Source: Rhodococcus sp. 105337
Lineage (GTDB): Bacteria; Actinomycetota; Actinomycetes; Mycobacteriales; Mycobacteriaceae
Direction: 5' to 3'
DNA length: 64,000 nucleotides
Assembly (NCBI RefSeq): GCF_012844225.1
Contig: NZ_JABAGQ010000001.1
Coordinates: forward strand, 1 to 64,000
Part shown: in pieces, positions 19,138 through 35,714 of the stretch
Position numbering within the stretch: the stretch's first letter is position 1
Layout: each line of letters begins with the position of its first letter
Notes under the pieces: model-generated
The model's database searches: none
What the model was told of the DNA's origin: nothing
What the model saw: the letters and a program-made list of their open reading frames with translations, nothing else
Position numbers and translations under genes: made by a program

Positions 19138-20598
19138 TCAGAGGGCGTCCGCGACACGCCTCGCCAGCATCACGACCGTGGCATGCGGGCCCCGGCTGGG
19201 CACCTGCGGGAACACGGAGGTGTCGGCGACGAAGAGACGCTCGGCGCCGTGCACCCGGCACCGGTCGTCGACGACCGCCGAATCGTCCGAACCCATCCTG
19301 CACGAGCCCGACAAGTGCTGGGACGTACCGAGATGCGCCGCGAGCCACTCGTCGTCCACGTCCGCTGCGCCCGTCGGAACACTGTGCGGGTCCACGACCT
19401 CGTCCATCGCCGCGAGCAGGTGGACCGCCGATGCGACCCCGTGCCGGAGCGCTGCACGATCGCGAGGGTCGTCCAGGTATCCGTAGTCCAGGAGAGGCGC
19501 GGCGTACGGGTCGCGTGCGTCGAAGATCAGGCGCCCGCGACTGCGCGGCCGGGTGAGGACGACGCCCAGCACAGGTACGGCAGCGCCACTGCCCGGTACG
19601 GAGTCGGCGAACGGAGCCGTGTAGGGACGCAGTTCGAGTTCGTCTGTGTGCAGGACAGTTTCGAGTACAGCCGTACCGAGAGGCAGATCGCTGCGGTACC
19701 GGTACGGAACGGCAACTTCCGGATGGTCGGTAAATCCCGTACCGACCCCGGGAAGGTCGACGACGGGCGCGACGCCGAGCGTGGCGAGTTCGTCCGCGGG
19801 CCCGATGCCGGAGAGCAGGAGAAGGCGGGGACTCTCGACCGCACCGGCGCACAGCACGACACTTCCCGCCTCGATGAACGTGACGCCGTCACCGCCGTCC
19901 ACCTCCACCCCTACCGCCTCGGCACCGGACATCACCACCCTCCGCGCCCGCGTACCGGAGCACACGGTCAGATTCGGGGAGGCGAGCGCGGGCATCAACG
20001 ACGAGAGTGCCGGTCCCATGCGTACCCCGTTCGCGATGTTGAGGGGAACGCGTCCCACCCCGACCGGACCGGGCGCGTTGAGGTCCTCCACCGGAAGATG
20101 GCCCGCCGCCACAGCGGCATCGTGGAACGCGCGCGCCACGGGGTGCAGACGGGACCACGGGGTTCGCGACACCGGTACCGGTCCGGCGGCGCCGTGCCAC
20201 TCGTCGCCGAAGTCCGAGTCGTGCTCGATGAGCCGGAAGTACGGCAGCACGTGGTCGAACGACCACGACGGGGGCCAGGCGTCGAAATCTCCCGGGCGCC
20301 CGCGGACGAAGTAGCCGCCGTTGACCGCGCCGGATCCTCCGAGCACCCGGCCCCGGGCAATCGTGCCGGGCCTCCCGGCCAGGAGCACCGGATATTGCGC
20401 AGTCCAACGACTTTCAGGCCCGACGGGAAGCCTCGAGGCGTCCAGCAGTTCCGGTGGCGCGGTACCGGTGCTCGCGTAGCCGGGACCGCTCTCGAGCAGC
20501 ACGACGGTGCGGCCCGGGCGTCCGGCGAGGGTGGCGGCAAGTGTGCATCCGGCGCTCCCACCCCCGACCACCACGATGTCGGCGCGCGCCGGAATCAC
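19138..20598 (-). CDS. mftG: Mycofactocin-system GMC oxidoreductase MftG
   Basis: A glucose-methanol-choline flavoprotein of 486 residues with the FAD dinucleotide motif VVVGGGSAGCTLAATLAG at the N terminus, the GMC signature GRVLGGSGAVNGGYFVRG near residue 83 and the active-site His region LGTSQHLSGSCRMG near 430. MftG is the known partner of mycofactocin that links reduced cofactor to the respiratory chain in mycobacteria. It is the last gene of the mftE-F-G unit and starts at GTG 20598, one base after the mftF stop. Confidence 0.92.
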   Translation of the reverse strand: MIPARADIVVVGGGSAGCTLAATLAGRPGRTVVLLESGPGYASTGTAPPELLDASRLPVGPESRWTAQYPVLLAGRPGTIARGRVLGGSGAVNGGYFVRGRPGDFDAWPPSWSFDHVLPYFRLIEHDSDFGDEWHGAAGPVPVSRTPWSRLHPVARAFHDAAVAAGHLPVEDLNAPGPVGVGRVPLNIANGVRMGPALSSLMPALASPNLTVCSGTRARRVVMSGAEAVGVEVDGGDGVTFIEAGSVVLCAGAVESPRLLLLSGIGPADELATLGVAPVVDLPGVGTGFTDHPEVAVPYRYRSDLPLGTAVLETVLHTDELELRPYTAPFADSVPGSGAAVPVLGVVLTRPRSRGRLIFDARDPYAAPLLDYGYLDDPRDRAALRHGVASAVHLLAAMDEVVDPHSVPTGAADVDDEWLAAHLGTSQHLSGSCRMGSDDSAVVDDRCRVHGAERLFVADTSVFPQVPSRGPHATVVMLARRVADAL

Positions 20599-20599
20599 G

Positions 20600-22018
20600 T
20601 CAGGACCGGATATCGGGCATCAGCGCCGCGGGATCGCGGGCGTCGACGACCCCTTTCCAGAGCCCGGCGCCGTAGGCGAGGTCGTCGAGGCGCTTGAAGA
20701 AGACGTACCGCACCGGGTCGAGGCCACCGCCCTCGCGGTGCGAATACCAGTCCCACATGCCTTCTGCCACAGCGAAAGCCACCACCGCGCGCCGCACTTT
20801 CGACGACAGCACCGCCGCAACGAATGTGAGCGGCCAGTAGTGCCGGCAGACGGCGGACGCGACCTGCCACATACCGCCCGCGAAGCTCTGACCGGTCAGC
20901 ACCGCTGCGATGCGCGTCGGCCGGTCGAGTTCGGCGAACATGCGGCGCAACCGCACGAGCGTGACGAATTGGGTCAGTACCGCGACGACGACGCCGAACC
21001 GGGTCATCGTGGCGACGGCCGAGCACGCGAGAAGGGTCCAGACGGACATCGCCATCGGGGGCACGGTGCCGGGATGTCTCGCTTCCAGCGGCGCCGCCCC
21101 GGTTCCGTAGAAGACCTTGCGGGAGAACCATTCCGGGAAACTCACACGATGATCGTGGGCAACCCGCGCAACCGGTTCGTACCGGAGTCGCCATCCCTCG
21201 CTCCGGAGGCGGCGGCACACGTCGACATCCTCCGCGACGTGCATCGACTCGTCGAAACCCCCGCACCCGGCAAGTGCCTCGCGGCGGACCACCATGGCGG
21301 CGCTGGGGACGTAGGACACCGGGCTACCTGCCACAACGGGGGCTTCCCGGCGGCCGAGGTCCAACGACGAGCGGGCGTGCTCGTAGCGTGCCAGCGCTCC
21401 GTTGTCGGGATCGAGAGCCACGATGCGGGGCGCGACGAGCGCCACGGCCGGATCGCTGAAATGGCCGAGCGACGCCTCGAGCCACCCGATGCGCGGAACG
21501 ACATCGGAGTCGAGGAATGCCACGAATTCTGTTTGTGCTTCCCGCAATCCGATGTTTCGTGCTGCGGAGGGTCCGCGCGATGCCTCGAATCGGACCACGC
21601 GGACCCGCGGGTTGTCCGGCCAGTCGATCGGCATGTCGGAGCCGTCGTCGACCACGATGACCTCGAGGCCGGGAAGCGCTTGCAGCAACCGCCGCACTCC
21701 CGCCGCATTGTTCCGGACGGGAACGACCACCGTGACGTCCGCGGTGGAGGGCAGTCGCGTGGGACGCGGATTACCGACACCGGAGTCGAGCAGCCGCCGG
21801 GCGACCACCGCGGTTCGGGAGTCGACGACCTCGAGGTGATCGCCGTCGATCATCGCCGCGGCGGCGGGCGCCAGTTTGAGCATCCGGGTGGGCGAGCCTC
21901 CGATGAGTACGCGCCCGCCGGCGAACCGCCGGACCCGCGGATCGATGCGCACCCCGAATCCGTCGGGTAGCCGTCCACCGGGAGTCTGCGCCAGTTCGGG
22001 TGTTGTCGCCTGACTCAC
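20600..22018 (-). CDS. mftF: Mycofactocin glycosyltransferase MftF
   Basis: A 472-residue family-2 glycosyltransferase that attaches beta-1,4-glucose chains to the premycofactocin core. The nucleotide-sugar motifs VIVVDDGSD (near residue 125) and [10 protein letters not shown] (near 170), and the acceptor-region motif [20 protein letters not shown] (near 260) are present. Two hydrophobic segments at about 310-345 suggest membrane association. The start is GTG 22018, overlapping the mftE stop codon in the sequence GTGA, with GGAGGGGG upstream. Tight coupling to mftE and mftG supports the assignment. Confidence 0.93.
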
Positions 22019-22734
22019 CGAAGTCCCCCCTCCGTGCCCGGTTCCCACCGAGCGACCTGCGATGCTGCACGTTCCGTCAGGTGTGCGAACAAGCGGGCCC
22101 CCTGCGCTGCAGTTGCGGTGGTGGGATCGCCGAGAACCCCGTTCGCCGACACCGAAACCATACCGGCTTCACGCAGTTGTGGCATCAAAGTGGAGATCGG
22201 ATCTGTGTTCCCGGCAACCGCGCTCGCCATCTCCACCGCGTTCGGGAACAGGTGCAACATCAGACTCGTTTCAGTCACCCCCGCGTGGGCGTCGGCGCCC
22301 GGCACCGCGCACGGGAGCCAGGCCACGTCGCGCCCCTCGTAGCGCAGCAGCGACACGGCTTCGGCCAGGGCATATGCGTTTCCGCCGTGCCCGTTGACGA
22401 ACAGCACCCGGGAAGCCCAGCGGCAGATAGAGCGCCCGTACTCCACGAACACGGTGCGCAGCGCCTCTGCTCCGATGGACACTGTTCCCGGAAAGTCCTC
22501 GTGCTCGCCGCTCGCGCCGTACGCGAGCGGCGGAGCCACGAGGACGTCGGGAAGTGCCTCGGCAACGGCCGTGGCGATCCGGGTATCGGTATCGAGGGGC
22601 AGATGCGGGCCGTGTTGTTCGAGCGATCCCACCGGTACCGCGACGGTCCACCGCTCCGGTTCGACGTGGGTCCAATAGGCGCCGGCAAGATCCCGTATCA
22701 CCGGTCCGATGCTAGTGCGTCGGACAGCCCGCAC
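22015..22734 (-). CDS. mftE: Mycofactocin creatininase-family peptidase MftE
   Basis: A creatininase-family metallopeptidase that releases the C-terminal Val-Tyr-derived dipeptide unit from the modified MftA precursor. The metal-binding motifs [13 protein letters not shown] (near residue 40) and [12 protein letters not shown] (near 112), and the later [10 protein letters not shown] are intact. The length is 239 residues from GTG 22734; GTG 22701 would give 228 and neither has a strong ribosome site. It follows the hydrolase gene by 15 bases and overlaps mftF by 4 bases. Confidence 0.92.
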
Positions 22735-22749
22735 CGCGAGCGCGTGGTG

Positions 22750-24795
22750 TCACACCAGCAAGCGAGGTATTTCCCGATTCCAGTTCTCGGAGTAGACGCG
22801 CCGCTTGCCGTGGATCTCGTCGGACTCGTACGCATCCAACTGTGCTGTGATCACGAACTCGTCCGGTGTCGATGTCAGCACCGTCCGGGTCCGCACCTCC
22901 GTCTGCCAGTCCCCTCGACCGAGATAGCGCACGGTCTGGGTCTCGCCGCGCGCCGACTCCACGTCGTTCCCCTGGAAGCTGAACCACTCGGTCGTTGCGC
23001 TCCGCATCGTGGTGCCGGTGTCTTCGACGAAGAGTTCTCCCTGGTCGTCCTTGATCTCGAGTGTGGTCACGCCGGTTTCGAGATCGCGCGAAGTCCGCCA
23101 GTGGTGTTCGCCCGGCTCGACCCGTGTGACGGCGGAGGATTCCGCACCTTCGGGCTCACCGAATGCGGGTAGCGCCGAGTCCTCGGCGTCGCGTCGCGGA
23201 CGCACGGGCAGGCTCAGACGACTTTCGCCGGTGGTCACCGTGAGGGTCGCGAGTTCGGGCGCCGGCCACACCAGCGGAAAGTACGAGGTGGACAACGACA
23301 AGCGGATGCGATGGCCTGCCGGGAACTCCTGCGCCATCCCGTTGAGCTTGACGCGCACGCGATACTTTCGCCCCGGTTCGAGCGGCTGCGGGTCCGCGCT
23401 GCCGTCACGATGCGTGAGGTTCAGCAGACCGTAGGTCACTCGCGTCGCCTGGCCGTCCGGAGCGACATCGCTGAGCCTGGCCGCGACCATCGCCACCGGC
23501 TTGTCGGCACTGATCTCGAGATCGAGCTTCGGCAGGCCGACCACGTCGAGCGGTTCGTCGAGGGCTTCGGTTTCGAAAACGAGTGCGCCGCCGTCCTCTT
23601 CCCGCTGATCGGAGGGCAGGTCGGGAGTGGCCGCGTACGAGGCCCACTTGCCACCCGCCATCCCCAGGCTCAGCGGTGAACACACCGCCAGGTCCCGGCG
23701 CTCCACGGCGTCCGGATCGGCGTCCTGGTCCAGTCCGAAGCGCGTGAGCGAGTACTCGCGGCTCTCGATGCCCGGCGCGGGCCACGACGGCTCGGAGATC
23801 CATGTACCCGGCCGCTCGGGGTAGCGCGGGTGCGGCGGGACGCTGCCCTGCTTCCACATGCGGAGCATGGGTTCGTCCATGATGCCGTTGTCGATCCCCT
23901 TGAGCCAGTAGTCCCACCACCGGACGACCTCCTGCAGGAACCCGATCTCCGGACCGGGCACTCCCTGGTGCGGGTACTTGTGACCCCACGGTCCGATGAG
24001 TCCCTTACGAGGGACGTCGAGGTTCTCCATCAGCCGGAAGATCGCGTTGGTGTAACCGTCGGCCCAGCCGCCCACCGCGAACACGGGACATTGCACGTCC
24101 GCGTAGTTCTCGTTGACGGAGGCACGCTTCCAGTAGTCGTCCCGATGTTGATGCTCGAGCCACTTCTCGACCCACAGTCCGCTGCCCTGCAATCGTTCGT
24201 GCCACATCTCGCGCCACCGGTCGCCGACGATCGCCGGGTCCGGCGCCATGCTGTTGAAGGCGAACATCACGGTGGCTTCGGACAGGTTGTCCGACAGCAG
24301 GCATCCACCCATGTAGTGCATGTTGTCGACGTACAGATCGTCGGTGGCGGACGCGCTGATGATCGCTTTGAGTGCCGGTGGCCGCTTCGCGGCAACATGG
24401 AGGCTGTTGAAGCCTCCCCACGAGATACCCATCATGCCGACGTTGCCGTCGCACCAGGGTTGCTGCGCAGCCCACTCGATCACGGCGCACGCATCGTCCT
24501 GCTCGGTAGGGAGGTACTCGTCCTCGAGTACCCCGTCGGAGTTGCCGCTGCCGCGCAGGTCCACCCGGATACAGGCGTATCCGTGGCCGGCGATGTACGG
24601 GTGGTTGAGCTCGTCTCGCGCTCGGGTGGTATCCCGGTGCCGATACGGAATATATTCCAGCACAGCGGGAACCGGGTTGCTCTCGGCTCCGTCCGGAAGC
24701 CAGATGCGAGCCGACAGCCGACAGCCGTCGGGCATCGTGATGAAGGTGTTCTCGATGACGCGAACACTGTGGGGAAAGGATGTCACTGTCTGCAC
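22750..24795 (-). CDS. CocE/NonD-family alpha/beta hydrolase inside the mycofactocin locus
   Basis: A 681-residue serine hydrolase of the CocE/NonD (X-Pro dipeptidyl-peptidase S15) family. The nucleophile is in GISWGGF near residue 127, the acid probably in GGWADGY near 250, and the His in GPWGHKYPHQ near 275; the C-terminal third is the jelly-roll X-Pro dipeptidase domain. Such enzymes cleave acyl esters, amides or dipeptides. I chose GTG 24795 because AGGAAGG lies 5 bases upstream; the open frame continues upstream without coding character. It sits between an ATP-grasp gene (47-base gap) and mftE (15-base gap), which suggests one transcript and a possible role in cofactor processing. The substrate is unknown. 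Confidence 0.9.
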   Translation of the reverse strand: MQTVTSFPHSVRVIENTFITMPDGCRLSARIWLPDGAESNPVPAVLEYIPYRHRDTTRARDELNHPYIAGHGYACIRVDLRGSGNSDGVLEDEYLPTEQDDACAVIEWAAQQPWCDGNVGMMGISWGGFNSLHVAAKRPPALKAIISASATDDLYVDNMHYMGGCLLSDNLSEATVMFAFNSMAPDPAIVGDRWREMWHERLQGSGLWVEKWLEHQHRDDYWKRASVNENYADVQCPVFAVGGWADGYTNAIFRLMENLDVPRKGLIGPWGHKYPHQGVPGPEIGFLQEVVRWWDYWLKGIDNGIMDEPMLRMWKQGSVPPHPRYPERPGTWISEPSWPAPGIESREYSLTRFGLDQDADPDAVERRDLAVCSPLSLGMAGGKWASYAATPDLPSDQREEDGGALVFETEALDEPLDVVGLPKLDLEISADKPVAMVAARLSDVAPDGQATRVTYGLLNLTHRDGSADPQPLEPGRKYRVRVKLNGMAQEFPAGHRIRLSLSTSYFPLVWPAPELATLTVTTGESRLSLPVRPRRDAEDSALPAFGEPEGAESSAVTRVEPGEHHWRTSRDLETGVTTLEIKDDQGELFVEDTGTTMRSATTEWFSFQGNDVESARGETQTVRYLGRGDWQTEVRTRTVLTSTPDEFVITAQLDAYESDEIHGKRRVYSENWNREIPRLLV

Positions 24796-24842
24796 GAGTA
24801 CCTTCCTGTCGATCGGTTGAACAAGTCGCAGGCAGGAAGGCC

Positions 24843-26168
24843 CTAGTCGGAGATTTCGTCGATCCCGAACGGCAGCAACTCGGTCGCACGATCGAAGTAC
24901 TTCTCGAGCCCGCCCACGTCGTCGGCACCGATGTACAGGGTCGCGAGGACCGTCCGGTAGCCGTCCTGGTTGGGCAGTTCGGAGAGCCGGTCGCCTACCC
25001 GAACCTTGATGTCCACCACCGTATCCGGGATCTCCTCGCAGACTCGGGCGAGATCGTCGGCGCTGGGGACGCTGCGCACGATACCGTCGGAGTAGTAACC
25101 GACGTGGCACTGAGCCGCGTGGCGGAACTTGCCCTTGCGCGGTTCGATGCGCGGTTCCACGCCGAGCGCGATATCGATCGCCACCTCGTGGTTCGACGTT
25201 CCGTCGACCTTGACGAAAAGGTCACTGTGCGACTGCGAGATGCGGGTGTTGACCTCGATGAGCGACAGCTTTCCCGTCTTCTCGTCCCACATGAACTCCG
25301 TGTTGAAGCAACCGTTGTCGAAACCGACGTGACGCAGGTACCGCTCCGTCAGATCGATCATGCTTTGCTGCACATCCTCGGGGACCGACTGTGCCGGGTA
25401 GTCGAGCCTGTCGAAGCTGTGCCCTGCCGCATCCTTACGCATGTCGAAGAAGCCGTGAATGCGGTACTCGCCGTTGAACATCGTGCCTTCGGGCGCGACC
25501 TGGATACCCGTGATGATGTCTTCGGCGAGGCACATGTTGCCGCCGACTCCTTCGAGTTCGGGCGGCAGTTCCACCAGGGACAGCACTTCGTCGAACGCGT
25601 CCCCGACCCGGCCGATCTCGGCACGGATCTGCTCGAGTGCAGCGGCGAACTCCTCGGCGCTGTTGATCTCGAATCCGAGTTGCGACGAGTGGGACTTGAT
25701 CGGCTTGACCCAGAACGGGAAGGAAAGGTCGATCGAATCGAGCGCGTTGTCGTCGAAAGGATCGAAAACCGCGAAGCCCGGGACACATTCGGGAATGCTC
25801 TTCCGCTGCTCGATTCGGCTCCACGCCTTGTGCTCGCACTGGAGAATACTGCGGAGTGTCGGCGCGGGCAGGCCCCGTTCGGCGGCGAGAATCGGAGCGA
25901 GCACGCTCGTCGGGAAATCCCAGTGCGCGACGATCCCGTCCACGCTGCCGTCGAACTCGTCGAGTTCGCGGCGTGCCCGGTCGAGCAGGTCTCGGAACAC
26001 ATAGGTCTCGGGCTCGACCAGTGACTCGTAATCCAGAAGGCCGTGGAACCGGAGTTCGTCGGCGTTCGAAAGAGTGTCGAGCTTGTCACGCTGCTGATCG
26101 GTCAGGGCCGGGATGAATATGTTCTTGTGCATCACCAGTGGGTGCCCATGCAACGATTCGATAAACAT
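24843..26168 (-). CDS. ATP-grasp enzyme inside the mycofactocin locus
   Basis: A cytosolic ATP-grasp protein of about 441 residues, probably a carboxylate-amine or carboxylate-thiol ligase. Landmarks are PFWVKPIKSHSSQLGFEI near residue 153 (ATP-binding Lys), a central grasp region with EYRIHGFFDMRKD near 245, and the metal-binding FNTEFMWDEKTGKLSLIEVNTR near 305-325 with its paired acidic and Asn residues. The family is related to carbamoyl-phosphate-synthase-like ligases, but no substrate can be read. ATG 26168 has GGGAG directly adjacent, so a later start (ATG 26132) is possible. It heads the leftward unit containing the hydrolase and mftE-F-G. Confidence 0.88.
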   Translation of the reverse strand: MFIESLHGHPLVMHKNIFIPALTDQQRDKLDTLSNADELRFHGLLDYESLVEPETYVFRDLLDRARRELDEFDGSVDGIVAHWDFPTSVLAPILAAERGLPAPTLRSILQCEHKAWSRIEQRKSIPECVPGFAVFDPFDDNALDSIDLSFPFWVKPIKSHSSQLGFEINSAEEFAAALEQIRAEIGRVGDAFDEVLSLVELPPELEGVGGNMCLAEDIITGIQVAPEGTMFNGEYRIHGFFDMRKDAAGHSFDRLDYPAQSVPEDVQQSMIDLTERYLRHVGFDNGCFNTEFMWDEKTGKLSLIEVNTRISQSHSDLFVKVDGTSNHEVAIDIALGVEPRIEPRKGKFRHAAQCHVGYYSDGIVRSVPSADDLARVCEEIPDTVVDIKVRVGDRLSELPNQDGYRTVLATLYIGADDVGGLEKYFDRATELLPFGIDEISD

Positions 26169-26309
26169 CTCCCGCAAATGCCCAGCAATACCGCCGAGTG
26201 TGTTTATCCGGTTGTCCGCCGGGCGAGTCCCGTCGGAGGATCGTGGGCCCGAGGGACAGGCGGGAGGATCGGCGCCGGTCGCGCCACGGCCGGCACGTAC
26301 TCTCGTCTG

Positions 26310-27293
26310 GTGCAGATCGAACCTCGTCCCTTGGACGACCCGGACGTGCAGGCCCTCATCGACGAGGTTCAACTCGAGTACGTGCGTCGCTACGGCGGGC
26401 CCGACCACACCGAACTTCATCCGGAACAGTTCGCACCCCCACGCGGGCTGTTCCTGCTCGCACATTCCGGAACTGCGCCGCTGGGCATCGGGGGCTGGCG
26501 CGCGTACGACGCGGGGCATCCCGGTCTGCGCGACGGCGACGCGGAGATCAAGAGGATGTACGTGCGTGCGGATTCGCGGCGACGCGGAATCGCGCGGCGC
26601 CTGCTCGACGCGCTGGAGCGAACCGCAGCGGACGCGGGACGTCGCCGGATGGTGCTCGAAACCGGCACTGCGCAACCGGAAGCCATCGCGATGTACACCG
26701 CAGCCGGGTACGCCCCGATGCACGAGCGGTTCGGCGTCTGGGCCGACTCGGAGTCTTCGCTGTACTTCGCCAAGGGATTGCCTCGCATCCGGCTCGCGGC
26801 GGAGGCAGAACTACCGTTGCTCCAGGACATCGAACGGGCGGCGGGCGAACAGTTCGCCGAACTGGGCATGACCTTCGTCGCGGACGACGCCCCGCCGACG
26901 GTCGCGGAATTGCACCGTTATCTCGCCGCGGGCCGGAACTGGGTGGCGTTCGACGAAGGCGGTGCGCCGGTGGCGTACCTGATCGCCGAACCGGTCGACG
27001 ACGCGCTCCACATCGAGCAGGTCTCGGTGCATCCCGGTCACGCTCGGCGCGGCGTCGGTCGCGACCTGCTCGCCCACGCCGCCGGGTGGGCTCGCGATCA
27101 CGGGTACAACGCCGTGACGCTCACGACCTACCGCGACGTTCCCTGGAACGCGCCCTATTACGAACGCCTCGGCTTCCGCATTCTCGGCGACGGAGAACTC
27201 ACCCCGGGGCTGCGCCGGATTCGCGCACACGAAACGGAGCTGGGACTCGACTACCGTCCACGCGTTGCGATGCGACGCGAACTCGGTTCGTAG
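26310..27293 (+). CDS. Double-domain GNAT acetyltransferase
   Basis: A 327-residue protein with two GNAT N-acyltransferase domains in tandem. The first (about residues 1-155) has the acetyl-CoA motif MYVRADSRRRGIARRLLDAL and the second (about 160-320) has VSVHPGHARRGVGRDLLAHA. Tandem GNATs include mycothiol synthase, but this is longer in the first half and lies in a different context. The start is GTG 26310; no ribosome site is visible, so it may be leaderless. It is divergent from the ATP-grasp gene and ends 23 bases from the end of an OYE-like gene, so it lies alone on the plus strand within the mycofactocin island. Confidence 0.88.
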   Translation: MQIEPRPLDDPDVQALIDEVQLEYVRRYGGPDHTELHPEQFAPPRGLFLLAHSGTAPLGIGGWRAYDAGHPGLRDGDAEIKRMYVRADSRRRGIARRLLDALERTAADAGRRRMVLETGTAQPEAIAMYTAAGYAPMHERFGVWADSESSLYFAKGLPRIRLAAEAELPLLQDIERAAGEQFAELGMTFVADDAPPTVAELHRYLAAGRNWVAFDEGGAPVAYLIAEPVDDALHIEQVSVHPGHARRGVGRDLLAHAAGWARDHGYNAVTLTTYRDVPWNAPYYERLGFRILGDGELTPGLRRIRAHETELGLDYRPRVAMRRELGS

Positions 27294-27316: not shown

Positions 27317-29278
27317 TCACACCGCGATCGCTGCGGCATCCCCCTCGAGGATCGCGTTGTGCGCACGGCGCGGGGTCACCGCGTCGCCGACGCGGAACAC
27401 AGGAATGCTGCTGTCGCACAGTTGTTTCCAGAGTTCGTCCACGGGTTCCTGATGGGCGACGACCACCACGGCGTCGGCCACGAAGGGCCGGGCCGTGCCG
27501 GTCCGGTGATCGACGAGCGACACGACCGTCGCGTCGTCGGCGTCCACGACTCCCGTGACCATCACGTCGGTGATCTGCATGATCCCCGCAGCATGGGCGC
27601 GACGCGTCCATCCGTCCATATCGAGGGTGAGGCCGAGATCCTGTCCGACGATCATGCCGCCGGTGCACACCGTCACGGTGCAGCCACGTCCGGCGAGAAG
27701 TTCGGCCACCGACGTCGCCTGATGAAAACCCAGATCGTCGACCACGAGCACCCTCCCCTCCGGATCGCCGCGACCCTCGAGCACGTCGCGGACGTCCACG
27801 ACCTTCGCGGAGTCTCCGGCCCAGACCGGCCGCTGAGGCCGGGCACCTGTCGCCACGATCACGGCGTCGGGCCGGTAGGCGCGGACGAAGTCGGCATCGA
27901 CCTCGAATCCGGTCCTGATCTCGACACCGGCCCGAGCGCATTCCGCCTCGAGGCTCGTCACCATCCCTGCCAGTTCGCCGCGGTGCGGTGCGGTCGCCGC
28001 GGCGCGAATCTGCCCACCCGTCCACGGCTCTCGCTCACACAGCGTCACGGAGTGCCCGCGACGAGCGGACGTAGCGGCAGCCTGTAGTCCGGCCGGTCCA
28101 CCACCGACCACGAGCACCCGGCGGCCCGGCATCCGCGGCGCAGGCAGGGGCGTGGATTCGCGGCCCGCGCGCGGGTTCACCGTGCACCCGATCCACCGGC
28201 CCAGACCGACCCGCCCGATGCATTCCTGGTTGCAACCGATACACGGCCGCACCTCCGCGTCGCGTCCACCGAGAGTCTTCCCCGCGAAGTCGGGGTCGGC
28301 GATCTGTGCCCGCACCGCACCGACGAGGTCGCAGACCCCCTCTGCCAGCGCGGAGCGGACCTGGCCGGGTGTCGTGAACCGTCCGACGCCCACAACGGGT
28401 AGCGACACAACCGCGCGGAACGCAGCGGGCACGAACAAGGAGTATCCGTGCGGCGTGGACATCGGCGCTTCGACGAGATGGAGCGTTTCGGTGGCCACAC
28501 CGACCGACGTGCTGAGGTAGTCGACGGCATCCGTCGCATCCAGCATGCGCGCGACCTGCACCGCATCGTCGATGCCGATCCCGCCGGCGGTGCCGTCGTG
28601 GCCGCTCAGACGCACCCCCACGATGTACTCGTGCCCCAGCACGGACCTGACCGCGGCCACGACCTCGAGGAGCAACCGGGCACGACCGGTCGGATCGCCA
28701 CCGTAGCGGTCGGTGCGGCGGTTGGTCCCCGGTGCGAGGAAGGCGCGCAGGATCGACGCCTGCGAGCACTGGATCTCGACACCGTCGAATCCGCCGTCGG
28801 CACACCGCCGCGCGACCGCCGCGTAGCCGGCGATCAGTTCGGCGATCTCGTCGCCACCGATCGCCACGGGCACTTCCCGGAACAACGCGTCGGGTTCCGG
28901 TCCCGGTGCCCACAGCGGCCGGCCCGTGTACATGGAGCTTCCTTGTGCACCGTTGTGGTTGAGCTGAGCCAGGATTCGTGTGCCGTGCGCGTGCACTGCG
29001 TCGGTGAGGCGGCGGTACCCGGGTAGCACCGCGGGATCCCAGCCCCGTATCAGCTTCTCGTACGGCCGATCCGAGCGATGCACCGTGTGTTCCTCGGTGA
29101 CGATCATCGCTGCCCCGCCGCGTGCCCGCGCCGTGTAATACGCGATGTGCTGGTCGGTGATCTCCCCGTCCACCGCGAAGTTCGTCAGGTGGGCCGGGAA
29201 AATGATCCGGTTGCGCAACGTGGCCGGACCGATCCTGAGGCTGTCCGCGGGATCGGGACCGGCCGTGTTGCGCGGCAC
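27317..29278 (-). CDS. Mycofactocin-system FadH/OYE-family oxidoreductase (second copy)
   Basis: A 653-residue flavoenzyme of the 2,4-dienoyl-CoA reductase/old-yellow-enzyme type. It has an N-terminal FMN barrel (residues 1-350), an iron-sulphur cysteine cluster PCIGCNQECIGRVGLG with a following Cys (near 350-370) and a C-terminal FAD/NAD half starting VLVVGGGPAGLQAAATSARR near 395. This family is known from mycofactocin neighbourhoods, as pairs of OYE-like proteins. The start is GTG 29278, 3 bases after the SDR stop, so it is cotranscribed. The native substrate is unknown. Confidence 0.88.
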   Translation of the reverse strand: MPRNTAGPDPADSLRIGPATLRNRIIFPAHLTNFAVDGEITDQHIAYYTARARGGAAMIVTEEHTVHRSDRPYEKLIRGWDPAVLPGYRRLTDAVHAHGTRILAQLNHNGAQGSSMYTGRPLWAPGPEPDALFREVPVAIGGDEIAELIAGYAAVARRCADGGFDGVEIQCSQASILRAFLAPGTNRRTDRYGGDPTGRARLLLEVVAAVRSVLGHEYIVGVRLSGHDGTAGGIGIDDAVQVARMLDATDAVDYLSTSVGVATETLHLVEAPMSTPHGYSLFVPAAFRAVVSLPVVGVGRFTTPGQVRSALAEGVCDLVGAVRAQIADPDFAGKTLGGRDAEVRPCIGCNQECIGRVGLGRWIGCTVNPRAGRESTPLPAPRMPGRRVLVVGGGPAGLQAAATSARRGHSVTLCEREPWTGGQIRAAATAPHRGELAGMVTSLEAECARAGVEIRTGFEVDADFVRAYRPDAVIVATGARPQRPVWAGDSAKVVDVRDVLEGRGDPEGRVLVVDDLGFHQATSVAELLAGRGCTVTVCTGGMIVGQDLGLTLDMDGWTRRAHAAGIMQITDVMVTGVVDADDATVVSLVDHRTGTARPFVADAVVVVAHQEPVDELWKQLCDSSIPVFRVGDAVTPRRAHNAILEGDAAAIAV

Positions 29279-29281
29279 CGG

Positions 29282-30094
29282 CTAGACCTTGGAGTTGCCC
29301 TGGTCGAGGGCCATCTGGCTGCCCGTGATCGTCTTCGCACGATCGCTCGCGAGGAACAGCACCGCGTCGGACGTGTCGTCGGGATCGGCGATCGGCTTCT
29401 CGGTGAGGATGGGTGCGAAGTTGGGCAGCCAGGCCGGGAAGCGCTCGAACATCTTCAGCGATCCCTGATCGGTGCCCATCGGGGTCTTCACGCCGTAGGG
29501 GTGGATCGAATTGACGCGGATGTTGAACTCGCCCAGTTCTTTCGCAGCAGCCTGGGTGATGCCGACGAGACCGAACTTGGCAGCGCCGTAATGTGCCTGT
29601 CCGGGCATCGCCTTCAGTCCGGCGACGGAACTGACGACGATGATCGAACCGCCGTTCCCGGCTTCGATCATGGCGGGCGCCGCCGCCTTCAACGTCTTGA
29701 ACACGCCCGTGAGGTTGATGTCGACGAGTTCTTCGAACTGCTCGTCGGGCATTTCCCAGAATCGGTTCCAACTGCAGATGCCGGCGTTCGCGACAACGAC
29801 ATCGAGCCGTCCGAACTGCGCGACACCCTCGTCCACCGCAGCCCGCAGGGCGGCACTGTCGCGGACGTCGGCGATGCGAGCGACGATCTTGCCCCCGGCC
29901 TCCTCGACGAGTCGGACGGTCTCGCGGAAGTCGTCTTCGGTCGCCTGCTCGTAGGTGATGTACTCCGATACCGGCTTCGCGACGTCGATACCGATGATCG
30001 ACGCTCCCTCCCGGGCGAACCTCAGGGCGTGGTTACGTCCTTGGCCTCGCGCGATACCGGTGATGAAGACAACCTTGCCGTCGAACTCGCCCAT
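29282..30094 (-). CDS. Mycofactocin-coupled SDR oxidoreductase
   Basis: A 270-residue short-chain dehydrogenase with the Rossmann motif TGIARGQGRNHALRFAREGA near residue 13 and the catalytic YGAAK near 170. The segment GIDVAKPVSEYITYEQATED shows the insertion after the second beta strand that marks mycofactocin-coupled SDRs; known members hold their nicotinamide tightly and pass electrons to mycofactocin. ATG 30094 has GGAAGGA well placed. It lies between the two OYE-like genes in one unit, so the three are probably an oxidoreductase set that uses this cofactor. Confidence 0.92.
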   Translation of the reverse strand: MGEFDGKVVFITGIARGQGRNHALRFAREGASIIGIDVAKPVSEYITYEQATEDDFRETVRLVEEAGGKIVARIADVRDSAALRAAVDEGVAQFGRLDVVVANAGICSWNRFWEMPDEQFEELVDINLTGVFKTLKAAAPAMIEAGNGGSIIVVSSVAGLKAMPGQAHYGAAKFGLVGITQAAAKELGEFNIRVNSIHPYGVKTPMGTDQGSLKMFERFPAWLPNFAPILTEKPIADPDDTSDAVLFLASDRAKTITGSQMALDQGNSKV

Positions 30095-30126: not shown

Positions 30127-32031
30127 TTACAGTTCCGAGGCGAGACGGTGCCCCTCCCGGATCGCGTCCCGCACCGTCCGAGGAGCGATGCAGTCACCGA
30201 TCTCATCCAGCCCCGGACGGCGCGATCTGTCATCCGGCAGTCCCACTGAGCAGTCCACGAGTGCGGCCGCACGCACGGTGACCTCGGATTCCGTTACTCG
30301 ATGGACGAGACGCACCCCCGACGAGTCGACCGCGCGCACCCCGACGCCGAGGTGCCGCCGCACGCCCGCACGCTGCAACCGGACGTTCGCCGCGACCAGA
30401 TCGCCGGTGGGCGCCAGCCTCGATCCCGGTATGGGGTCCGGCGTGGCGTAGTGGACCGCGCGCCCCGGCGCAACGAGGTGCTCCGCGACCGCGACACCGA
30501 GCCGGCCGCCTGCCGGATCCCAGACGACGACATCATCGGGGACCGTGTCCGGGTGGTCGAGGGCATACGCGGCCGTGACGTAGCGGCCACCCCGGTGGAC
30601 CGGGAATCCGGGTGGGCGGGGGCGGCTGCCGGTGGCCAGCACCACCGTGGTGCCGGCCCCCATCGCGGCGTCGAGGTCGTCCGAGGTGACGGTGACGCCG
30701 GTGCGGACGACGACACCGAGGTCCCGGCAGCGGTCCTCGAGCCAGTGCGCAAGCAGTCCGAAGTCGGGAGCACCCGTGCCGCGTGCCGCGGTGTGCAGCA
30801 TCCCTCCGACGCGATCGGTGCGCTCCGCGACGGTCACACGGTGGCCACGTCCCGCGAGACCGCGTGCCGCTTCCAGCCCGGCAGGCCCCCCGCCGACGAC
30901 GAGCACGTCACGCGCAGCGGTCGCCGCAGGGGCTGCCGGACGATCTTCCTGACCCGCCTCCGGGTTGGCGATACATCCGACTTCCGGATTGCGGAAGTCG
31001 CGCACGGGGCACGCCTGGTTGCAGCGCACACACGGCCGCGGATCGCGGTGGTCGCGGATCGAGTCGACGAGGTCGGGGTCGGCGATCTGCGCACGGGTCA
31101 TCTCCACCGCATCGCACACCCCCCGATCGAGAGCGTGCCGCGCGGACGAAGGGTGGACGACGCTGCCCTGCAACACCACCGGCACGGTGCCCGTGACGGC
31201 CGCGCGGACCTGGTTGCACAGGTCTCGGTTGAAGTCCGCCGGCGTGTGCGCGTCGGGCCGGTACGTTTCCGGCGTGAACAAGCCCCCACGGACGACGGTG
31301 AGCAAGTCGAGCGAGGGTGCGAATTCCCGCGCGTAGCCGACGGCGACGTCCGGCGTGAGGCCGGCCCACGGGGCGTTCTCGTCGCAACTCAGGCGCAGCG
31401 CCACGACCCGGCCGGGTCCGAGTTCGGCGCGCACGGCGGCGATCACCTCCCGGAGGAGACGTGTCCGGTCGGAGCCGAATCGGTCGGTGCGGTGGTTCGT
31501 CAGGGCGGACAGGAACTGCCGGAGCAGGGCGGTCGGTCCGGCATCGAGTTCGACGCCGTCGGCGTCGGCATCGACCGCGACGGCCGCCGCAGCACGGAAT
31601 CCGGCGATCACGGATTCGATGTCGCCGGGAGTCATCTCTGCCGGGAGTTCACGGGTCGCGGGGTCGGGTACGCGCGACGGGGCCCACAGCGGCGCTCGGG
31701 TCCAGGCGCTGGAGCCCTGGAGTCCGCAGTGCCCGAGTCCGGCCAGGACGAGTGCGCCGTGCGGTCGGCACGCCGAGACGATATCCGCCCAGCCTTCCCC
31801 TGATTCGGCTGCGAGAGGGGCCCGTTCGTAGGGACGGTCGCCGGCGAGAACCGACGCCACTTCGGTGATCACGATGCCCGCACCGCCGCGGGCCCGACGC
31901 TCGTAGTACGCGCGGTGGCGACCCGAGAAACGCCGGCCCGCAGCGAGATTGGTCTCGTGCGGACCGAAGATCACCCTCGACGGCGCAGTGCGGCCGGCGA
32001 GGGTGATCGGATCGGTGAGGGCAAAGCTCAT
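30127..32031 (-). CDS. Mycofactocin-system FadH/OYE-family oxidoreductase (first copy)
   Basis: A 634-residue homologue of the other OYE-like protein in the locus. It has an FMN barrel, the iron-sulphur cluster motif PCVRCNQACPVRDFRNPEVG near residue 325 followed by Cys-Ile-Ala-Asn-Pro, and the FAD/NAD part beginning VLVVGGGPAGLEAARGLAGR near 365. It begins 11 bases after the mftD stop codon at ATG 32031 and is followed after 32 bases by the SDR gene. The two paralogues are clearly different in sequence, so they probably act on different substrates. Confidence 0.88.
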   Translation of the reverse strand: MSFALTDPITLAGRTAPSRVIFGPHETNLAAGRRFSGRHRAYYERRARGGAGIVITEVASVLAGDRPYERAPLAAESGEGWADIVSACRPHGALVLAGLGHCGLQGSSAWTRAPLWAPSRVPDPATRELPAEMTPGDIESVIAGFRAAAAVAVDADADGVELDAGPTALLRQFLSALTNHRTDRFGSDRTRLLREVIAAVRAELGPGRVVALRLSCDENAPWAGLTPDVAVGYAREFAPSLDLLTVVRGGLFTPETYRPDAHTPADFNRDLCNQVRAAVTGTVPVVLQGSVVHPSSARHALDRGVCDAVEMTRAQIADPDLVDSIRDHRDPRPCVRCNQACPVRDFRNPEVGCIANPEAGQEDRPAAPAATAARDVLVVGGGPAGLEAARGLAGRGHRVTVAERTDRVGGMLHTAARGTGAPDFGLLAHWLEDRCRDLGVVVRTGVTVTSDDLDAAMGAGTTVVLATGSRPRPPGFPVHRGGRYVTAAYALDHPDTVPDDVVVWDPAGGRLGVAVAEHLVAPGRAVHYATPDPIPGSRLAPTGDLVAANVRLQRAGVRRHLGVGVRAVDSSGVRLVHRVTESEVTVRAAALVDCSVGLPDDRSRRPGLDEIGDCIAPRTVRDAIREGHRLASEL

Positions 32032-32042
32032 ACCGGTAGGAG

Positions 32043-33254
32043 CTACTCGACTCCCAGATCGCGACGGAATCCGGGCGGGACGACGACGTCACCGGGTGTG
32101 AGGTCGTGGATCGAATCACGGCCGAGGCCCAAGAGGGCGGAACCTATTCCGCCGCCGAGGATGTCGAGGACGTTCTCGACACCCGCCTGGCCGTTGGCCG
32201 CGAGACCCCACAGGTAGGCGCGGCCGATCATGACGGCGTCGGCACCGAGCGCAACGGCCTTGACGACGTCGCTGCCGCGCCGGATGCCACCGTCGAGCAG
32301 CACCTCGATGTCGTTGCCGACCGCCTCCGCGATAGCCGGGAGCGCGCGGATGGGGGCCGGGGTGCCGTCGAGGTTGTTGCCGCCGTGGTTCGACACCGAG
32401 ATCGCCGTGACGCCGGCGTCGACGGCGCGCTTGGCGTCGTCGACGCGCATGACGCCCTTGAGCATGAACGGGGCGTCGCCCCACTGTTCACGCAGCCACG
32501 CCACGTCTTCCCAGGTGGGCAGCGGGGTGCTCATCCACTCGCCGTACGCGCCGAAGAACGTCGGCGTGTCACCGCCGGGCGGGGTGAGATTCGGGGTGGT
32601 GAGGTCCGGGACGCCGCCGGTGCGGGCCCAGTCCAGAAGCCACTTGGGCCGGATGATGCCCTCGGGTGCGAACTTCACCATCGCGTCCAGGCTCATCCGC
32701 TCGGGGATAGCGGGACTCCCCCAGTCGCGGCCGTTGGAGAAGGACCAGTCCAGGGTCATGATGAGACCCTTGGCACCGGCCGCGCGGGCGCGTTCCATGC
32801 GCTGGACGAGCACGTCGCGGCTGCCGACCCAGTACATCTGGAAGAAGGTCTTGTCGTTGGCCGCGGCCACATCCTCGATGGATTTGCTCGCGAACGAGCT
32901 GAGACCCATCGCGATTCCCCGTGCGGCGGCCGCGCGGGCGACGGCTACCTCGCCGTCCGGGTGGACGGCCTGGACACCGGTCGGCGAGATGAGGACGGGC
33001 ATGGCCACGTCCTGTCCCATGACCCTGGTGCCCATGTCGCGCTTCTCCGACAGTCCTGCGACGTGCGGGGCGAAACCGAGCTCGCGGAACGCCGCGAGAT
33101 TGTCGTCGACGGTGATGCCGGCTTCGGACCCCGCCACGAGCGCGCCGTACACCGACTTCGGCAGCCGCTTGCGTGCACGCTCCTGCGCCACGGCGACCGT
33201 TTCGAACCAGTCGCTCTGCTTCCAGGGATTCTTCAGCCACGAGAACTTGGCCAT
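32043..33254 (-). CDS. mftD: Mycofactocin system dehydrogenase MftD
   Basis: An FMN-dependent alpha-hydroxyacid-dehydrogenase-like enzyme of 403 residues, the family of lactate dehydrogenase LldD. In mycofactocin biosynthesis it oxidatively deaminates AHDP to form the redox-active premycofactocin. The motif ISVSNHGGNNLDGTPAPI near residue 290 carries the active-site His, and VLLDGGIRRGSDVVKAVALG near 320 binds FMN phosphate. I chose ATG 33254 (MAKFSWLKNP) with GGAGAG upstream; the longer open frame overlaps mftC and is not coding. It follows mftC by 22 bases. Confidence 0.94.
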   Translation of the reverse strand: MAKFSWLKNPWKQSDWFETVAVAQERARKRLPKSVYGALVAGSEAGITVDDNLAAFRELGFAPHVAGLSEKRDMGTRVMGQDVAMPVLISPTGVQAVHPDGEVAVARAAAARGIAMGLSSFASKSIEDVAAANDKTFFQMYWVGSRDVLVQRMERARAAGAKGLIMTLDWSFSNGRDWGSPAIPERMSLDAMVKFAPEGIIRPKWLLDWARTGGVPDLTTPNLTPPGGDTPTFFGAYGEWMSTPLPTWEDVAWLREQWGDAPFMLKGVMRVDDAKRAVDAGVTAISVSNHGGNNLDGTPAPIRALPAIAEAVGNDIEVLLDGGIRRGSDVVKAVALGADAVMIGRAYLWGLAANGQAGVENVLDILGGGIGSALLGLGRDSIHDLTPGDVVVPPGFRRDLGVE

Positions 33255-33276: not shown

Positions 33277-34545
33277 CTACAGGCCTGCGAGAGGGTTCTC
33301 GTCGCAGAATTTGGCAGGCGGCTTGGCGAGCAGCGTGAGTGGCACCGGTGCTGCCGGGGTGCGACGCTCGGCCCGCTTGCCGGTACGCGAGTGGTCCACG
33401 CTCGACTGCGGCACCGTCCGTTCGGCCTCGAGGGCCGACTGTCCGTATCCCTGAACACATTCCGGGTCGGGTCCGTCCATCGGAAGGCCGGTGAAGAACT
33501 TCGCCGCCATGCAGCCGCCGCGGCACGAGTCGTAGAAGTTGCACGAGGCGCACGCGCCGGCGGACTGCGGTTCGCGCAGTTCCCGGAACAGGTCGGAGTT
33601 CTTCCACACCTCGGCGAAACCGCCGTCGGTGAGGATGTTCCCGGCGTGGAAGTTCTCGTGGATCGCGAACGGGCACGCGTAGACGTCACCGATCGGATCG
33701 ATCAGGCACACGACACGGCCCGCACCACAGAGGTTCAGGCCGGGCAGAGCCCCGCCGCCGCTGTCGCCGCCGAAGGCGGACAGGTGGAAGAACGAGTCGC
33801 CGGTCAGGACGCCTTCGCCGTGTGCGACGAGCCAGTCGTAGAGTTGCCGCTGCTGGTCGTGGGTGGGGTGCAGGTCGTCCCAGACGTCCACGGCGCGGCC
33901 CGACGGACGCAGCCGGGTGATGCGCAGTGTCGCGTCGTAACGGTCGGCGAGCGCCTTGAAGTCGTCGAGCTGACCGACGTTGTGGCGCGTGACCACGACG
34001 GAGATCTTCGCGTCGCGGAAGCCCGCCTCGGACAGGTTCTCGAGAGCGCGCACAGCCATCGCGAAGGAACCGGGGCCGCGTACGGCATCGTTGACCTCGG
34101 CGGTCGCGCCGTCGAGGGAGATCTGCACGTCCACGTAGTCGGACGCTGCCAGCCGCGCCGCGACCTTCTTGTCGATGCGCACGCCGTTGGTGGAGAACTT
34201 CACGCCGACCTGGTGCTCGGTGGCGTAGTCGACGAGTTCCCAGAAGTCCGAGCGCACGGTGGGCTCACCGCCACCGATGTTGACGTAGAACACCTGCATG
34301 CGTTGCAGTTCGTCGATGATGGCCTTGCACTGTTCCGTGGACAGCTCACGCGGGTCGCGCTTGCCCGACGAGGACAGGCAGTGCACACACGAGAGGTTGC
34401 AGGCGTAGGTCAGTTCCCACGTCAGGCAGATCGGAGCGTCGAGGCCCTTCTCGAACTGGTCGACGAGTCGACCGACCGCGGGCGGGAGGGAGGGAGCCGG
34501 TGCAGCCGGCGTGCTGGTGACGGGGGGTTCGAGCAGAGACGTCAT
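33277..34545 (-). CDS. mftC: Mycofactocin radical SAM maturase MftC
   Basis: A radical SAM/SPASM enzyme of 422 residues that decarboxylates and cross-links the C-terminal Val-Tyr of MftA. The iron-sulphur Cys triad is C49-x3-C53-x2-C56 in YACNLSCVHC, GGGEPT is near residue 91, and the SPASM cysteines include LNLCGAGRVVC, DVYACPF and CASCNFYDSCRGGC. The first 30 residues are Pro/Ala rich. It begins 25 bases after mftB. Its length is typical of the family. Confidence 0.95.
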   Translation of the reverse strand: MTSLLEPPVTSTPAAPAPSLPPAVGRLVDQFEKGLDAPICLTWELTYACNLSCVHCLSSSGKRDPRELSTEQCKAIIDELQRMQVFYVNIGGGEPTVRSDFWELVDYATEHQVGVKFSTNGVRIDKKVAARLAASDYVDVQISLDGATAEVNDAVRGPGSFAMAVRALENLSEAGFRDAKISVVVTRHNVGQLDDFKALADRYDATLRITRLRPSGRAVDVWDDLHPTHDQQRQLYDWLVAHGEGVLTGDSFFHLSAFGGDSGGGALPGLNLCGAGRVVCLIDPIGDVYACPFAIHENFHAGNILTDGGFAEVWKNSDLFRELREPQSAGACASCNFYDSCRGGCMAAKFFTGLPMDGPDPECVQGYGQSALEAERTVPQSSVDHSRTGKRAERRTPAAPVPLTLLAKPPAKFCDENPLAGL

Positions 34546-34570: not shown

Positions 34571-34870
34571 TCAGGCGGGCACGATCATGTGCGAGTCGGC
34601 CAGCGTGCCGAGGGCACGCACATAGGGCCGCTCGGCGCTCTCGTCGATTCCATGGGCGCGCAAGGCCTCCCGCACCGACGCGTGGTGGTCGAGGGACCGG
34701 ACGACGTCGACGATGACGGTGTTCTTCAGGAACGACAGTTTGCGGGTGCCGAAGTGGTAGAGCAACGCCCCGAAAGGCTCGGGGCGAAGCGCTACCTGCG
34801 GGTGGAGCCGCCACGTGGCGCCCGGGTCGAACTGTGTGGTCGCCACGGCGGTGGCTCCGGGGGCGGACAT
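34571..34870 (-). CDS. mftB: Mycofactocin precursor-recognition chaperone MftB
   Basis: A 99-residue PqqD-like RRE protein that binds the MftA leader and delivers it to MftC. The central part, WRLHPQVALRPEPFGALLYH followed by FGTRKLSFLKN, is the conserved RRE core of the family. ATG 34870 lies 2 bases after the mftA stop codon, so the two are translated together. The open frame extends upstream through mftA in another reading frame, but that part is not coding. Confidence 0.93.
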   Translation of the reverse strand: MSAPGATAVATTQFDPGATWRLHPQVALRPEPFGALLYHFGTRKLSFLKNTVIVDVVRSLDHHASVREALRAHGIDESAERPYVRALGTLADSHMIVPA

Positions 34871-34872
34871 GA

Positions 34873-34968
34873 TCAGTAGACGCCGCACATGCCGTCGATC
34901 GAGACCTCTTCCACGAGGGACTCCTCGATCAGCTCGGACTCGATCACCGCGTTGTCGCGATCGGACAT
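34873..34968 (-). CDS. mftA: Mycofactocin precursor peptide MftA
   Basis: A 31-residue peptide beginning MSDRDNAVIESEL, followed by an acidic leader and ending in the conserved core IDGMCGVY. The final Val-Tyr pair is what MftC joins and MftE releases to make the cofactor. A strong ribosome site AGGAGGA lies 5 bases before ATG 34968. It is the first gene of the mftA-B-C-D unit and is divergent from mftR, with a perfect 16-base palindrome 20 bases upstream. Confidence 0.96.
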   Translation of the reverse strand: MSDRDNAVIESELIEESLVEEVSIDGMCGVY

Positions 34969-34987: not shown

Positions 34988-35003
34988 ACTCCACATGTGG
35001 AGT
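34988..35003. promoter_or_regulatory. Palindrome in the mftA-mftR gap, probable MftR operator
   Basis: ACTCCACATGTGGAGT is a perfect 16-base palindrome, 20 bases upstream of the mftA start codon and 88 bases before mftR. MftR is known to repress its own locus in mycobacteria and to respond to long-chain acyl-CoA. Confidence 0.7.
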
Positions 35004-35007
35004 CCAC

Positions 35008-35032
35008 GTCACAACAGGGCTAGCGTTGTGAC
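35008..35032. promoter_or_regulatory. Second inverted repeat in the mftA-mftR gap
   Basis: GTCACAAC-N9-GTTGTGAC has perfect 8-base arms and starts 4 bases after the 16-base palindrome. A TGTAAT box at 35045-35050 could be the -10 element of mftR. Either repeat, or both, could bind MftR. Confidence 0.6.
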
Positions 35033-35090
35033 TCGGTTCACCACTGTAATGGCATCGAGTGCAGAATGTCATCCATGGATCGAGGGAAAT

Positions 35091-35714
35091 ATGCCTGACC
35101 GCCGAGAGCCGTCCACCCGGACCGGCCGGCGCCCCTCCACCACGAGAGAATCGCTGGCGGCGGTCGGCATCGAACTCTTCCGCACCCGCGGCTTCGACGA
35201 GACCAGCGTCGACGACATCGCCGAGGCGGCGGGCATCGCGCGGCGCACCTTCTTCCGGTACTTCCCCTCGAAGAATGCGGTCGCGTGGGGTGACTTCGAC
35301 GGCCAGCTCGAACAGATGCGCCGACGACTCGCAGAGGTCCCGCCGGACGATTCGCTCGCGGACGCGCTCACCGCCGCACTACTCGACTTCAACACCTTTC
35401 CGGCATCCGAGAACGAGCGGCATCGCGCCCGCATGGAACTGATCCTGCGCACTCCCGCCCTCCAGGGGTACTCGTCGGTGATGTACCAGGGGTGGCGCGC
35501 GGCAATCGCCGAGTTCGTCGCGCGCCACACCGGTGCCCGCGCCGACGACCACATCCCGAGGACCGTCGCCTACCTCGTGCTGGGCGTCGCGGTCGCGTCC
35601 TACGAGCAGTGGCTCACCGACGCCGACTCGGACCTGCGTGACCTGCTCGGAACAGGAATGCTCACACTCTCCGAAGGACTCGGCCCGAGCACTCCCCCAC
35701 TCGAAAGAGGTTGA
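35091..35714 (+). CDS. mftR: Mycofactocin-locus TetR regulator MftR
   Basis: A 207-residue TetR-family regulator. The DNA-binding region is at about residues 15-65 (TSVDDIAEAAGIARRTFFRYF followed by PSKNAVAWGDF), and the rest is the ligand domain. ATG 35091 follows GAGGG by 5 bases; the longer open frame upstream runs across the operator and is not used. It is divergent from mftA. In mycobacteria MftR represses the mft genes and is released by long-chain acyl-CoA, so this gene probably does the same. Confidence 0.93.
   Translation: MPDRREPSTRTGRRPSTTRESLAAVGIELFRTRGFDETSVDDIAEAAGIARRTFFRYFPSKNAVAWGDFDGQLEQMRRRLAEVPPDDSLADALTAALLDFNTFPASENERHRARMELILRTPALQGYSSVMYQGWRAAIAEFVARHTGARADDHIPRTVAYLVLGVAVASYEQWLTDADSDLRDLLGTGMLTLSEGLGPSTPPLERG

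Follow-up and report, generated by a model that had tools for sequence, protein, structure and literature searches.

Actinobacterial mycofactocin loci comprise mftR, mftA to mftF, mftG and mftM, and MftG is described in PMC11778925 as almost exclusive to genomes that carry mft genes. Two groups of enzymes from outside this system are relevant here: the L-amino acid ligases, such as BL00235 (3vot), and the CocE/NonD hydrolases (cocaine esterase, alpha-amino acid ester hydrolase), which contain S15 and PepX_C domains. The window analyzed here, a stretch of 64,000 nucleotides at the start of contig NZ_JABAGQ010000001.1 of Rhodococcus sp. 105337, contains a complete mycofactocin locus: mftB, C, D, E and F scored above the family cut-offs and a mftA peptide is present. 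At the family level mftB to mftG, mftR and mftM of the window are like those of the known actinobacterial locus, and the order mftE-mftF-mftG is that of the other genus genomes compared; unlike the known locus, this one is interrupted by a GNAT acetyltransferase gene and by a pair of genes coding for an ATP-grasp ligase and a CocE-type serine hydrolase.

In the main text of Haft 2011 (PMC3023750) no word begins with "ATP-grasp", "hydrolase" or "acetyltransferase", and a literature search (ATP-grasp with CocE; mycofactocin with ATP-grasp) found no description of an ATP-grasp/CocE module. The earlier note on this DNA had proposed that ligase, hydrolase and acetyltransferase might act on mycofactocin or on a substrate of its partner enzymes. 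Our analysis favors, with a probability of roughly 0.62, a different explanation: the pair is an independent, conserved ligase-hydrolase module, widespread and uncharacterised, that moved to the mft locus from elsewhere, possibly with some loose attachment to the mft system.

The distribution of the ATP-grasp gene was determined in three overlapping samples, searched at E 1e-10 for the genus and at E 1e-30 for the order and the phylum. The gene was found in 8/18 genus genomes, 49/397 order genomes and 23/396 phylum genomes; a search within family f14 was positive for 163 of 390 genomes. All 18 genus genomes carry mftE above the cut-off, and the pair is located at mft in two of the eight genus carriers, the window genome and R. 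coprophilus. In the other six the pair is on a contig separate from mftE (genomes G003, G007 and G015) or 0.55-0.62 Mb away from it (G006, G009 and G013).

Surroundings of 6.9-19.9 kb were then collected for 106 loci outside the window's lineage, from about 98 genomes. Six of these loci belong to the genus, 40 were taken from the 54 matches listed for the order, 20 from the 28 listed for the phylum and 40 from family f14, the last mostly from the top of the match list. The hydrolase gene was present within the stretch in 83 of the 106 loci (49/66 in the first set, 34/40 in the f14 set). It was the same-strand neighbor, at a distance of 150 bp or less, in 45 of the 66 loci, the ligase gene preceding in 43 cases and the hydrolase gene in two; several of the 34 hydrolase genes of the f14 set are on the opposite strand or some kb off. 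The pair is in most cases a unit of two genes with one orientation. Of the 106 stretches, 104 yielded no mft gene.

The genus and order searches together gave 56 ATP-grasp carriers, of which 34 possess mftC above the cut-off and 22 do not; weaker radical-SAM matches were found in genomes without mftC above the cut-off and also in 14 of 14 controls. The ATP-grasp gene thus lacks the near-restriction to mftC genomes that is seen for MftG, and the pair, at mft in 2/8 genus carriers and in 2/106 other stretches, lacks its tight linkage to mft. The earlier note had named a pair found just as often away from mft genes as the result that would speak against its proposal, and this is largely what the counts gave. 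Because the pair is mostly located away from mft and 22 of the 56 carriers have no mftC above the cut-off, a dedicated modification of mycofactocin is unlikely. A plasmid search yielded five distant ATP-grasp relatives, the best with 34.7% identity; no CocE gene was annotated near the two of the five that were inspected, in a gene table that is incomplete.

Conserved residues in both proteins suggest working enzymes. The ATP-grasp gene, scanned as an open reading frame (ORF) of 626 aa, scored 39.6 against PF13535 (cut-off 27). Its orthologues share the start MHKNIFI, which suggests translation from the ATG at 26132 rather than from 26168. K114, K155, E291, E305 and N307 (numbering of the 441-aa form) are invariant in 27 aligned proteins, in which this start is also conserved; we take these lysines and acidic residues to be those expected of an active enzyme. 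The best match among profiles of solved structures was the L-amino acid ligase BL00235 (E 2.3e-15), over part of its length only (profile positions 63-300 of 428), and BacD chains matched at 4e-4 to 9e-4.

The hydrolase, scanned as a 786-aa ORF (22750-25110), scored 249.3 bits against TIGR00976 CocE_NonD (cut-off 66.3) and has the S15 and PepX_C domains of that family. S125, D246 and H272, presumably the catalytic triad, and Y51, presumably the oxyanion tyrosine, are kept in 51/51 aligned proteins and align with the corresponding positions of cocaine esterase, the nearest solved structures. The window protein is longer than the listed cocaine esterase chains (681 aa versus 571-587 aa), the match stopping at residue 507, and, unlike that of cocaine esterase, its gene is usually paired with an ATP-grasp gene.

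On the basis of these similarities, the ATP-grasp enzyme would, in the manner of L-amino acid ligases, convert a small carboxylate to its acyl phosphate and couple this to an amine, most probably that of an amino acid. The CocE-type hydrolase would cleave the amide or ester so formed, or else an ester that serves as precursor. A cycle of amide formation and amide or ester cleavage is the most economical reading, and its substrate is probably one other than mycofactocin itself.

Among named relatives the nearest that was found, R. coprophilus NBRC 100603 (locus L002; probably genome G002), carries the pair at the identical place, with protein identities of 93% (ATP-grasp) and 95% (hydrolase). 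The ratios of nonsynonymous to synonymous substitution (dN/dS) between the two species were 0.061 and 0.087 for the pair, indicating purifying selection; this and the shared position argue that the presence of the pair is not due to chance. The synonymous divergence of the pair (dS 0.52) falls within the range of the ten neighboring genes tested (0.30-0.92), and the insertion is therefore probably older than the split of the two organisms. In trees of 18 rows chosen among the collected loci, the window pair and five further pairs from Rhodococcus formed one group (support 90/90 and 84/88), whereas the G007 copy grouped with another genus. A recent acquisition of the pair from a different genus was considered and is not favored, as the trees place it, with moderate support, among Rhodococcus pairs. 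The self-standing module would thus have been inserted between the GNAT gene and mftE before the split from R. coprophilus. No former home of the pair was cleanly identified in genome G000, in which the Bac_transf flank is present without the pair and two manganese catalase (Mn-catalase) genes are located elsewhere; no Mn-catalase match was obtained for G002.

A TANCAT element, followed after 7 nt by GTG, precedes mftE in 17 of the 18 genus genomes, the exception being G011, which has an insert at that spot. In the window and in R. coprophilus the element is kept between the hydrolase stop codon and mftE, and the mftE start is therefore GTG 22701, 48 bp from the hydrolase gene; the 15-bp gap given by the earlier note is wrong, and a start at 22734 was ruled out by the genus-wide alignment of the element. 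A count over both strands of the window gave a single copy of TAGCATCGG. Upstream from TANCAT the sequence varies among lineages with different inserts; the element itself is constant.

In M. tuberculosis 73% of the primary start sites are preceded by a TANNNT motif whose center is 7-12 bp away, and no conserved -35 motif was found (PMC3898074); in M. smegmatis translation initiates from ATG or GTG at the transcript start (PMC4633059). We infer that the mftE transcript has no leader, or almost none. As the -10-like element survives in front of mftE, mftEFG probably still have a promoter of their own, to which read-through from the pair may add. The cotranscription of the pair with mftE, which the earlier note had considered probable, is possible for genes on the same strand 48 bp apart; it may be dispensable for mftE expression, since mftE shares its element and GTG start with 17/18 genus genomes and may be independent of the pair's transcript.

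Different genes were found in front of mftE in other genus genomes: a CGNR/ABATE-type regulator gene (the G017 copy alone was tested against Pfam) in G014, G017, G004 and G001 (L108, L106, L109 and L119), and in G001 an additional small gene (147 aa; no Pfam match at 1e-5). This junction thus accepts different inserts. The 1.5-kb insert of G011 (L110), at the expected position of TANCAT, ends in a sequence that resembles, as read by eye, the C-terminus of the transposon protein TnpB.

In five of the six genus loci away from mft the pair is downstream from a Mn-catalase gene. The motif GTTT-N15-GGGTA, which we liken to SigF/SigB-type promoters, was found upstream of the Mn-catalase gene in 5/5 of these loci (L011-L015) and upstream of 19/652 control ORFs; a yet looser pattern was found upstream of 12/67 ATP-grasp genes and 36/652 controls. 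These matches suggest that catalase, ligase and hydrolase may form a regulon of a stress sigma factor, and in its usual Rhodococcus setting the module would serve the general or oxidative stress response. In G005 (L148), which otherwise resembles this island, Mn-catalase, ligase and hydrolase genes appear to have been deleted, with truncated genes for YetF (DUF421) and DUF6098 on either side; in G008 the island is present without the pair.

Several observations weigh against an independent module with a role in stress. The stress assignment depends on neighboring genes and on a post-hoc motif: a stricter motif tried first matched 0/7 Mn-catalase genes, and the looser one, chosen after looking, matched 5/7, the five positive sequences being mutually related and the two Mn-catalase genes of other loci lacking it. 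The strict and the loose stress-sigma-like patterns are both absent upstream of the window ATP-grasp gene, and a search for a Mn-catalase gene in the window found none. No substrate is known for the ligase or the hydrolase, and 23 of the 106 loci have no hydrolase gene in the stretch, so the two enzymes are not strictly bound together. Both supports for the Rhodococcus grouping are under the level starred by the program, which also warns of a long branch in the ATP-grasp tree. Across the insertion, conservation in front of mftE stops at the -10-like element, a limit that bears on promoter strength. Finally, mft genes do occur in two of the 106 stretches, from two lineages and directly beside the pair, and in four genomes of genus g58 the pair is 11.8-14.2 kb from mftE; in two further g58 genomes with mftC, pair and mftC are on different contigs.

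In the first of these two lineages (G330) the ligase and hydrolase genes are divergent, and about 1 kb, occupied by a single ORF, separates the end of the hydrolase gene from mftE. In the second (G1093) mftR, the ATP-grasp gene and the hydrolase gene share a strand and are 39 bp and 1 bp apart, and G1092, of the same genus and outside the 106 loci, has the identical order. In these two genomes of one genus (L201, L202, L166) mftR, ligase and hydrolase genes look like an operon divergent from mftA-B-C. Under uniform placement, a target of 16.4 kb in 7 Mb gives 0.25 of 106 loci expected and a probability of 0.026 for two or more (0.35 and 0.048 in 5 Mb); the calculation credits every genome with mft and so sets the expectation higher, but its other assumptions, independence of related loci and uniform placement, may make the excess look better than it is.

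This nearness is what favors a metabolic connection outside cofactor biosynthesis, in which the hydrolase would free an alcohol or an acid from an ester or amide, mycofactocin-dependent dehydrogenases would oxidize the alcohol and the ligase would recapture the acid, the pair being favored near mft. The adjacency in two further lineages (P about 0.03 in the calculation above) and the presence of an ExaC-type aldehyde dehydrogenase and a mycofactocin-coupled SDR in the same locus fit such a supply of substrate, which we nevertheless consider doubtful in view of the 22 carriers without mftC above the cut-off, the 104 stretches without a mft gene and the lack of a known substrate. Similarly tentative is a broader form of the idea: that the pair is a loosely attached mycofactocin partner, placed beside mft at least three separate times (before mftE, behind mftR and beyond mftE), which would act on an amide or ester tied to mycofactocin-dependent alcohol oxidation or tune the cofactor.

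The position could also be accidental, if the gap between the mft units tolerates inserts and nearness elsewhere is coincidental. Other inserts are indeed found between the GNAT gene and mftE (1.0-1.5 kb in G014, G017, G004 and G011; 4.2 kb in G007). In G1093, moreover, the next gene past the pair shares 73-77% identity with the one at the same position in G378, G385 and G244. None of these three genomes has mftC above the cut-off, so in G1093 it may be the mft cluster that came to the pair and not the reverse. A purely neutral relocation is nonetheless improbable given the recurrence in separate lineages; purifying selection indicates a working pair, while being silent on its place. The modification of mycofactocin itself, with the ligase adding and the hydrolase removing an amino-acid or acyl group and the GNAT protein as acyltransferase, has in its favor the position of the pair, which adjoins mftE in two species and follows mftR in two genomes from a different genus, and is highly improbable against the 22 carriers without mftC above the cut-off, the 16/18 genus genomes with mftE and no pair at the locus, the 10/18 with no ATP-grasp gene at all and the GNAT gene near mftE even where the pair is not there. 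The distribution thus does not support the action on mycofactocin proposed earlier, the adjacency in other lineages still favoring some link, possibly through a substrate of partner enzymes; an independent module relocated into the locus remains our preferred explanation.

The GNAT gene was grouped with the pair as one set of enzymes in the earlier note; it proved to be an independent, genus-wide resident near mftE. It is present in the stretch around mftE in 16 of the 17 other genus genomes, missing from that of G001, and its distance from mftE is 200 bp or less in ten genomes and 1.0-4.2 kb in five, G002 having the pair between. Membership in the ligase-hydrolase module was rejected, as the gene is near mftE in genomes without the pair there. 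In a family sample of 151 genomes, full-length matches were listed in ten genomes, of this genus only, and partial matches in 55 other genomes; in the 30 of these 55 that were tested for mftE, none was beside mftE where both were on one contig. The window protein looks like a fusion, particular to the genus, of two acetyltransferases whose matches in other genera are separate genes, and its gene like a genus-level neighbor of mftE.

The remaining layout of the locus agrees with the earlier description: profile scans found the named genes in the order claimed, with a rightward GNAT gene between two leftward mft units, and the gaps of 47 bp between ATP-grasp and hydrolase genes (hydrolase start GTG 24795) and of 1 bp between mftF and mftG hold. 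The first unit runs from mftA through the gene of oxidoreductase 2 (OYE2) and the second from the ATP-grasp gene through the hydrolase gene, mftE and mftF to mftG, past which are a GAF-domain gene, the ExaC-type aldehyde dehydrogenase gene and a DUF779 gene. MftG, MftF, MftE, OYE2, SDR, OYE1, MftD, MftC, MftB, MftR and MftM all scored above NCBIfam cut-offs. The 31-aa peptide, which we take to be MftA, is encoded by an ORF below the length limit of the initial ORF list.

Features of the mycofactocin locus in the window
Feature	Position	Strand	Basis
mftG	19138..20598	-	TIGR03970 above cut-off
mftF (ORF limits, unrefined start)	20600..22048	-	TIGR03965 above cut-off
mftE (corrected start)	22015..22701	-	TIGR03964, 337.4 bits, cut-off 172, scanned with longer start
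48-bp gap with conserved TAGCAT-N7-GTG element of mftE	22702..22749	-	genus comparison
CocE/NonD (S15) serine hydrolase, 681 aa	22750..24795	-	TIGR00976 above cut-off
ATP-grasp ligase, 429 aa (441 aa from start 26168)	24843..26132	-	PF13535
Two-domain GNAT acetyltransferase, 327 aa	26310..27293	+	two Acetyltransf_1 stretches
Mycofactocin-system OYE family oxidoreductase 2	27317..29278	-	TIGR03997 above cut-off
Mycofactocin-coupled SDR dehydrogenase	29282..30094	-	TIGR03971 above cut-off
Mycofactocin-system OYE family oxidoreductase 1	30127..32031	-	TIGR03996 above cut-off
mftD (approximate start)	32043..33218	-	TIGR03966 above cut-off
mftC (ORF limits)	33277..34545	-	TIGR03962 above cut-off
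mftB (approximate start)	34571..34850	-	TIGR03967 above cut-off
Presumed mftA precursor peptide, 31 aa, C-terminal end IDGMCGVY	34873..34968	-	translation read by eye
mftR	34995..35714	+	TIGR03968 above cut-off
mftM	35721..36530	+	NF041255 above cut-off

The locus illustrates that an inserted module can look cotranscribed with the genes that follow while the downstream gene retains its own start signal, so that an argument from operon structure has to be set against comparison between genomes. It also brings out a widespread ligase-hydrolase module of open chemistry, and raises the testable question of whether the repeated position of this module beside mycofactocin genes is selected or not.

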